From an uncultured Planctomycetota bacterium (GTDB lineage: Bacteria > Planctomycetota > Brocadiia > CAIUPP01), in contig CAIUPP010000109.1 in the NCBI GenBank assembly GCA_903901045.1, forward strand, positions 25,936 through 89,935: a DNA stretch of 64,000 nucleotides. Reading direction: 5' to 3'. This document shows positions 2,565 to 24,820 of the stretch, one piece after another. A program made the position numbers and the translations under genes. The notes beneath the pieces were generated by a model. It saw nothing but the letters and a program-made list of their open reading frames with translations. It was not told where the DNA came from and did not search any database. Positions within the stretch are counted from its first letter, which is position 1. Each line of letters starts with the position of its first letter.

Positions 2565-2808
2565 TTCGACGCATCTATCGGCGGCTATTCGGGTTATCGA
2601 GAGCGCGCAGACTCGCTGAATTTTGGCAGTTGAAAATCGGCCCGAAAAAGATTTAGTATGAGGAAGTGAGATTTCGGCTCGCCGCCAGAACCAGCGGCGG
2701 GCAGGGGTCGCGCAGTCGTGCGCGACTGGCAAAAGGTCCGACCCCGCCGGGGGTGGTTCGCCGGCGGAACAGGTCGGGAGCCTTTTGAGAAAGGAGGTGG
2801 TCCAGCAG

Positions 2809-2841
2809 ATGTGCCATAGACCTAGGAGGCCGCTGACGTAA
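2809..2841 (+). CDS. Putative 10-aa leader/mini-ORF (MCHRPRRPLT)
   Basis: ATG TGC CAT AGA CCT AGG AGG CCG CTG ACG TAA, 9 nt after AGAAAGGAGGTG, an SD with extended 16S 3'-end complementarity. Confidence 0.45.
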   Translation: MCHRPRRPLT

Positions 2842-2881
2842 GCCGGCCGACGGGCCCGCGATGTCAGCGGCCCTCAAACTG

Positions 2882-2920
2882 ACGGCCCGCTCCTCGTGAT
2901 GAGGAGCGGGCCGTTTTGTT
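2882..2920 (+). terminator. Rho-independent terminator
   Basis: ACGGCCCGCTCCTC-gtgat-GAGGAGCGGGCCGT followed by TTTGTTT; perfect 14-bp stem. Confidence 0.9.
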
Positions 2921-2943
2921 TAGTGATCAACGGAAACGGCCTT

Positions 2944-3028
2944 CCACAGATTACACAGATGAACACCGATTACAGAGACATGGCACAGCGCCGTCAACCT
3001 AATCGGTGTTCATCTGTGCAATCTGTGG
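2944..3028. repeat. 29-bp inverted repeat (CCACAGATTACACAGATGAACACCGATTA), one mismatch
   Basis: Arms 2944-2972 and 3000-3028, downstream of the isocitrate dehydrogenase stop codon. Confidence 0.85.
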
Positions 3029-3042
3029 ACCGTCCGTTCGTT

Positions 3043-24455: not shown

Positions 24456-24820
24456 GGGGGCGATAGGATTCGACCGGGCAGATTGAGGTGGAAGTGGCGT
24501 GCCGAGGTTGTCAGGCGGCCTCGTTAAACACCTGGCAAAAACAACATAAGTGCCGACACACACTACTCTCTCGCAGCTTAATTGACTGCGACGCTCGTCT
24601 GGTTCAGCCTGCGGGACCGGAACGGGCGACCACAGCAGGCTGGTCTCGACCCTCGTTGCCTGGCGGGGAAGAGGCGAGAGTGTCAGTTGGGCTCGGGTCC
24701 AAAAGGAGTCCTGTCCACCGGAAGCCTGAGGATCTAGAAAAAATAAAAGATGGACTATGCACGTAGAGGCTTCCACTGAAATGCTTCGGGACGGGGGTTC
24801 GATTCCCCCCGCCTCCACCA
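24456..24820 (+). ncRNA. ssrA: Transfer-messenger RNA; predicted encoded tag ADTHYSLAA
   Basis: Acceptor GGGGGCG/CGCCTCC+ACCA, GATAGGATTCGAC, GTGCCGAGG...CCTCGTTAAA, ORF GCC GAC ACA CAC TAC TCT CTC GCA GCT TAA, T-arm GGGGGTTCGATTCCCCC. Confidence 0.96.

Follow-up and report, generated by a model that had tools for sequence, protein, structure and literature searches.

A free-standing, single-copy RNA gene that runs from promoter to terminator and belongs to no recognised family is, judging by its sequence, almost certainly present at about positions 2666-2920 of the window, by which the whole analysed stretch of 64,000 nucleotides of an uncultured Planctomycetota bacterium is meant. By pattern and model searches the gene is found in about a third of the sampled Planctomycetota, and look-alikes occur in other phyla. 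The RNA combines an extended Shine-Dalgarno sequence (SD1) against the 3' tail of 16S rRNA, a mini-ORF, a second Shine-Dalgarno-like motif (SD2) ahead of the stop codon and a hairpin (P3) around that stop, and its job probably concerns the sensing or the parking of ribosomes. Its features are given below; G001 is a Planctomycetota MAG (contig JAKJEM010000001.1), the nearest relative with the unit.

2630-2659, + strand: predicted sigma-70-like promoter TTGAAA-N18-TAGTAT, 9 of 12 consensus matches
2677-2702, + strand: hairpin A of the 5' domain, stem 2677-2685/2694-2702 (MFE fold), counterpart CCGCC..GGCGG in G001
2706-2727, + strand: hairpin B of the 5' domain, stem 2706-2714/2719-2727 (MFE fold), compensatory G-C/A-U change relative to G001
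2730-2786, + strand: long hairpin C of the 5' domain, AAAAGG..CCTTTT (MFE fold, comparison with G001)
2788-2806, + strand: SD1, extended Shine-Dalgarno against the whole 16S 3' tail
2809-2841, + strand: mini-ORF, ATG to TAA, MCHRPRRPLT
2824-2829, + strand: SD2, Shine-Dalgarno-like AGGAGG within the ORF, 9 nt ahead of the stop, recognised by the GAGG-stop distance in the family
2828-2872, + strand: P3 hairpin enclosing the stop codon, arms 2828-2837/2863-2872 (fold, covariation)
2845-2856, + strand: inner hairpin GGCC-GACG-GGCC with GRCG tetraloop (fold, member counts, covariation)
2791-2876, + strand: match to the family covariance model R1, 57.9 bits, E=3.7e-12 genome-wide, the window being absent from the training set
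2882-2922, + strand: intrinsic terminator, 14-bp stem 2882-2895/2901-2914 followed by a T-rich tail

All the elements named in a preliminary description of this DNA were located, the promoter-like sequence slightly ahead of the start at 2640 given there; it is the sole site of this kind between 2560 and 2960, where 0.1 would be expected from shuffled sequences. The 10-bp stem of P3 and the 14-bp terminator stem are both present as described, and the folding energy of the unit has a z of -8.45, with none of 200 shuffles equally low. SD1, the short ORF, SD2, the stop-enclosing hairpin, the terminator and the free-standing state, which together make up the anatomy of the family, were all found in the window. 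At gathering score no Rfam family was found for the window element or in the 14 planctomycete loci scanned whole, so that the earlier impression of an element outside the known families is borne out.

SD1 has the sequence AGAAAGGAGGTGGTCCAGC. Since the genome of the window has no assembled 16S, the tail of G001, the nearest relative with a 16S, was used instead; it reads GCGGCTGGATCACCTCCTTTCT, which is identical in four more members of the class, and because of this reading SD1 pairs with it over 19 nt with one G.U, exactly as had been claimed. The duplex (-37.5 kcal/mol) is the strongest with the tail in the 64-kb window, the next best on both strands reaching -26.3. The core AAGGAGGTGRTCC is common to the family members, and the base opposite the U of the 16S tail is A in 34, G in 36 and T in 2 of the 72 members, a purine count that was partly selected by the search pattern. 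The conservation of SD1 is indeed partly built in, because the members were first gathered through it, and the members added afterwards by model search (L160-L179) lessen this bias but do not abolish it. The spacing to the ATG, formerly called ideal, is better described as permissive, with 11 nt from GGAGG to ATG against a family mode of 7 nt from SD1 to the start. As for the earlier suggestion that CCTTT could sequester SD1, an alternative pairing of the 3' arm CCTTTT of hairpin C with AAAGG of SD1 is possible and the complementary bases are kept in G001, but in the MFE fold CCTTTT is paired with the upstream AAAAGG.

The unit of G001 is 79% identical over 250 aligned bases, with SD1, stop hairpin and terminator present. 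The mini-ORF had been read correctly, and its peptide is identical in the two genera despite synonymous changes (CCT/CCC, ACG/ACT) and a different stop codon (TAA/TAG). G001 is the sole other genome of the window's family among 77 genomes of the class, and within the class the element is confined to that family. With stems and mini-ORF kept in G001, no Rfam match at gathering score and an rRNA fragment excluded, the reverse was found of the circumstances that the preliminary description had named as counting against it. An rRNA fragment or misassembly was rejected on two grounds, namely that the antisense 16S end of G001 reaches 21.4 bits against 62.8 for the element, and that the window contains no Rfam rRNA. 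A mobile or phage origin was also rejected: SD1 with ATGTG as in the window has no exact match in viral contigs, and the window element, used as a query against plasmids and phages, yielded no meaningful match.

In the 399 Planctomycetota genomes an earlier pattern with ATGTG returned nothing beyond the window and two sites due to chance, and it was the loosening of the start codon that exposed the family. The pattern of AAGGAGGTGRTCC plus a start codon has matches in 96 of the 399 genomes; a reversed control gave about 49 genomes (counted by hand), therefore about half of the 96 are signal. Ninety pattern sites, some of them taken by choice, were sorted by a fixed rule. A terminator-like hairpin at most 260 nt past the stop accompanies 51 of the 63 sites at the head of an ORF of 8-34 codons, and 3 of the 27 remaining sites, which are mostly long coding frames. 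The anatomy that emerges is SD1, RTG, an ORF of about 12 codons, a stop codon enclosed by a hairpin, and a terminator, often with the GRCG-loop inner hairpin.

Ten members, neither the window nor G001 among them, served to build the model R1. After the window element the next match in its genome has E=0.34, and no chance SD site in coding DNA exceeds 25.9 bits. The refined model R2 finds, at E<=0.01, exactly one copy and never two in 130 of the 399 Planctomycetota genomes, some of the weak matches (e.g. G020, G166, G256) being chance. At E<=1e-3 we count at least 28 families. Twenty further loci picked from the R2 matches all have the anatomy, several of them without the exact SD1 pattern.

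Across the 72 members the mini-ORF measures 9-19 codons (mode 12) and ends in any of the three stop codons. In 50 members SD2, which had been overlooked earlier, appears as a GAGG among the final 27 nt of the ORF, and in 49 of these it ends 9-13 nt ahead of the stop; with one member per cluster the figure is 47 of 48 (P=4e-31 under a uniform null, an optimistic value owing to shared ancestry). The remaining members mostly have AAGGGG or AGGTGG, that is GGGG or AGGT variants, at a similar position, and two cluster representatives have neither GAGG nor one of these variants. The distance from SD2 to the last sense codon, 6-10 nt, is the range in which Shine-Dalgarno sequences act on start codons. 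GAGG stands in all three codon phases (31/13/6 of the 50 members), the core GAGGTGG being read as RRW, RGG or EVV; therefore no single inherited codon pattern accounts for it, and SD2 is conserved as RNA and not as peptide. As far as sequences can tell, the distance between an anti-16S motif and the stop codon is kept by selection, which is sensible only if a ribosome arrives there. As a separate observation, many members (e.g. L037, L077, L164) have TGTAG or GTAGT close to the ORF start, seemingly in variable phase, which is a candidate for a further RNA-level motif.

These data bear on two other readings. A functional micropeptide produced at a very high level would be in keeping with the identity of MCHRPRRPLT in two genera and with the similarity of peptides inside families, e.g. 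MIVRGSIRRWVR, much of which exists because of the SD2/P3 pairing. We regard it as improbable, since the peptides are unrelated between families and GAGGTGG is read in three frames. Alternatively, the RNA could act on the ribosome tail with no need for translation, as a 30S sponge, a hibernation factor or an RNA that guides or protects the maturation of the 16S 3' end, the ORF just helping its loading or release. SD1 spans the entire single-stranded 16S tail as a near-exact antisense and the gene is single copy and free-standing, all of which suit such an RNA; nevertheless, the in-frame stop 9-13 nt after GAGG, kept in any phase, together with short ORFs that have a start at Shine-Dalgarno distance and use all three stops, indicates that translation and termination were selected, and this reading is rather unlikely, although it deserves to be kept in mind.

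The stop hairpin was supported by covariation, for which the preliminary description had also called. In a plain MAFFT alignment 7 of the 11 pairs of P3 and the inner hairpin are doubly changed (3.6 in shuffles), and the covariation is 0.398 compared with 0.218+-0.038 when shuffled and at most 0.117 when slid. With 41 members all 11 pairs are doubly changed and the covariation is 0.505 versus 0.171+-0.017, in an alignment which was made to the model and hence leans towards structure. P3 was missed by MAFFT and RNAalifold on 14 members because of register shifts, and was recovered with structure-guided alignment. A GRCG hairpin of at least 4 bp occurs in 18 of 48 members, where 1.7 would be expected, and within family f24 the 5' domain has double changes in 11 of 24 predicted pairs. 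The 5' arm of P3 overlaps SD2 and the final codons of the mini-ORF. The GACGGG of the inner hairpin was considered as a complement of the 16S 1400 region, and this was dropped because the GACGGA members would not pair there.

Upstream of the unit stands a serA-like gene, and downstream an isocitrate-dehydrogenase-like gene in convergent orientation; in G001 the neighbours are amidohydrolase-like and proB-like genes (all named from translations). These different neighbours make the unit a free-standing one. Among the flanking ORFs of 26 members, neighbours are shared inside f24 only, besides one weak, partial upstream-ORF match, and no conserved co-directional downstream gene was found in these flanks. 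A cis leader or attenuator, in which translation of the mini-ORF governs P3 and the terminator and hence downstream read-through, would resemble the unit in its leader-peptide-like layout with a stop within a hairpin and a terminator, and in f24 a prfB-like gene does follow in the same direction; but the next gene in the window is convergent, the terminator closes the unit and the neighbours are not conserved, and we give this reading little credence. The preliminary description had offered a translation-sensing leader, a ribosome-binding small RNA or a highly translated micropeptide. Of these, an RNA that binds ribosomes or senses translation is the best fit; the translation-sensing part of the leader option may hold, while its cis-acting version is disfavoured together with the micropeptide.

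Some observations on neighbouring DNA may be added. In f24 (L061, L063) the RNA adjoins the prfB-like (release factor 2) gene and a glutamyl-Q tRNA synthetase-like gene, both named by eye; a function tied to prfB was rejected, this neighbour being limited to f24. In the window, GGGACACAATACTTTC motif repeats, direct and inverted, occupy 2496-2560, in the stretch that separates the unit from the serA-like gene, and may be left over from a mobile element; an imperfect palindrome around CACAGATTACACAGATGAACACCGATTA at 2940-3030, directly past the terminator, resembles a dispersed intergenic repeat; and in the intergenic region 410-830 CGCAAAGACGCAAAGGCGCAAAG stretches are repeated in both orientations.

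Outside the phylum, the pattern AAGGAGGTGNTCCAGCN{1,5}ATGTG was found, in 85,488 species genomes, in G001, one Rokubacteria contig and one Hydrogenedentota contig, where about two chance matches would be expected at uniform composition by our own estimate. Both contigs carry it inside terminator-closed units; in the one from Rokubacteria, GAGGTGG stands 11 nt ahead of the stop, and in the one from Hydrogenedentota the ORF is longer, at 33 codons. Two Rfam families resemble the element. The window scores 18.4 bits (E=0.026) with Ms_IGR-5 (RF02471), below its gathering score of 45, and 27.8 bits (E=2.8e-4) with CC2171 (RF01867), below its gathering score of 75; genome-wide, the window element is the only match of the CC2171 model at E<=1. 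Ms_IGR-5, an actinobacterial sRNA, has an SD1 of the GGAAGGAGGTGGTCC type, a 12-codon ORF, a stop hairpin and a terminator, and its GAGGTGGC ends 11 nt ahead of the stop like SD2, in a frame different from that of the window (EVA versus RRP); this is resemblance and not membership. The anatomy of the family recurs in a Nocardia locus that the Ms_IGR-5 model identifies with 142.7 bits. CC2171, a Caulobacter sRNA, shares GAAAGGAGGTGATCCAGTG as SD1, a start codon directly 3' of it, a hairpin with its 5' arm inside the ORF and a terminator, but in Methylobacterium the ORF has about 24 codons, and SD2 at the stop is not obvious in the two members inspected there (L056, L059). The loci of both Rfam families above gathering score were drawn from plasmid and phage collections. 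R1 scores of the actinobacterial and alphaproteobacterial loci (18-27 bits) are inseparable from chance SD sites, consequently the case for descent across phyla rests on anatomy and not on the model. This anatomy suggests common descent of the planctomycete, actinobacterial and alphaproteobacterial forms, and Ms_IGR-5 and CC2171 are probably parts of the same family.

Four further loci were recorded from these collections. L123 (MT835602.1, 'Bacteriophage sp.', human faeces, an unverified record) has a full Ms_IGR-5 at 1495-1670 (76.9 bits), which is either carried by a phage or comes from actinobacterial DNA that was mis-binned. L122 (Tsukamurella plasmid NZ_LR134464.1) has at 1501-1640 an actinobacterial member whose stop hairpin is simple and which stays below the Ms_IGR-5 gathering score. 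In the Azospirillum plasmids L058 and L060 an SD1 AAGGAGGTGATCCAATGTCTCATGG at about 1503 precedes an ORF of 57-59 aa with a signal-peptide-like start, which differs from the other members.

The two Rfam entries bring in another explanation, namely an ordinary sRNA that uses its G-rich stretches to base-pair with C-rich sites on mRNAs, its ORF and its match to 16S being incidental. Both are catalogued as sRNAs, and IGR-5 was reportedly found in an Hfq-based screen, to judge from the title of the paper in question. Such an RNA would leave the purines opposite the U of the 16S tail, the start codon at SD distance and the SD2-to-stop rule unexplained, and we hold it to be a poor candidate. In favour of the reading that we prefer below, the IGR-5 transcript has been detected in M. 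smegmatis (PMC10454040); against it, ribosome profiling in Caulobacter found most intergenic ncRNAs untranslated, a general statement in which CC2171 is unnamed (PMC4117421).

Taken together, the micropeptide, the leader and the simple antisense sRNA each leave at least one conserved feature unexplained. Among known systems, lambda-type minigenes have a very short ORF with a strong SD and can tie up the translation machinery; to our knowledge they have neither an SD2 at the stop nor a conserved stop-enclosing hairpin. The tmRNA (RF00023) is likewise a structured RNA with a frame of about 10 codons, and the stop codon of its tag sits in a helix, but it has tRNA-like ends and a resume function and is without an SD or start codon; RF00023 and ARAGORN match the window only at 24456-24820, a separate, complete one-piece tmRNA with the tag ADTHYSLAA. 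Leader-peptide attenuators (trp, erm and the S. aureus rbf uORF, which has an extended SD; PMC13009471) also have a short ORF, a strong SD and hairpins, but they precede a regulated gene, whereas the window unit is closed by a terminator and has unrelated neighbours.

The reading we prefer, to which we give slightly less than an even chance, is a free-standing minigene RNA in which SD1 would capture a ribosome, SD2 would re-anchor it at the stop, and ribosome occupancy would toggle the hairpin. In the corresponding working mode, deduced from the arrangement of parts and held with somewhat more reserve, SD1 would capture 30S subunits very efficiently and the ribosome would translate the short frame; once at the stop, SD2 would lie 6-10 nt from the P-site codon, as a normal SD does from a start codon, and could pair once more with that ribosome's anti-SD, slowing termination or recycling. 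A ribosome at the stop would block P3, and P3 would close over SD2 when the ribosome is absent or gone; by this switch between an occupied and a closed state the RNA could report or buffer ribosome availability. An action in trans might go through the 5' domain, the GRCG hairpin, the stability of the RNA itself or the plain holding of ribosomes. The ORF length of 27-57 nt roughly accommodates two ribosomes, one of them initiating and the other bound at the stop. More speculatively, the product of the RNA may be ribosome occupancy as such: space might exist for an initiating ribosome behind the stop-anchored one, the hairpin being switched accordingly, and the two-SD minigene might sense ribosome supply, termination or recycling, or collisions, with Ms_IGR-5 and perhaps CC2171 as clade-specific forms of the same ancient gene.

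A description of such an RNA was not found in the open-licence literature, and an earlier account in a closed journal is possible. The kind is rated new because we know of no system that combines, in a free-standing RNA, a full-tail SD with a stop-anchoring SD. The hypothesis could be quickly tested, since the hosts of Ms_IGR-5 (Mycobacterium smegmatis) and CC2171 (Caulobacter) are genetically tractable. If it is true, an RNA gene that is single-copy and complementary to the full 16S tail has escaped notice throughout a phylum, and two Rfam sRNAs that lack an assigned function would receive a shared anatomy and a testable hypothesis. Furthermore, a frame-independent SD at a fixed distance from the stop would represent a new use of SD:anti-SD pairing, by which a terminating ribosome, and not a starting one, is held.
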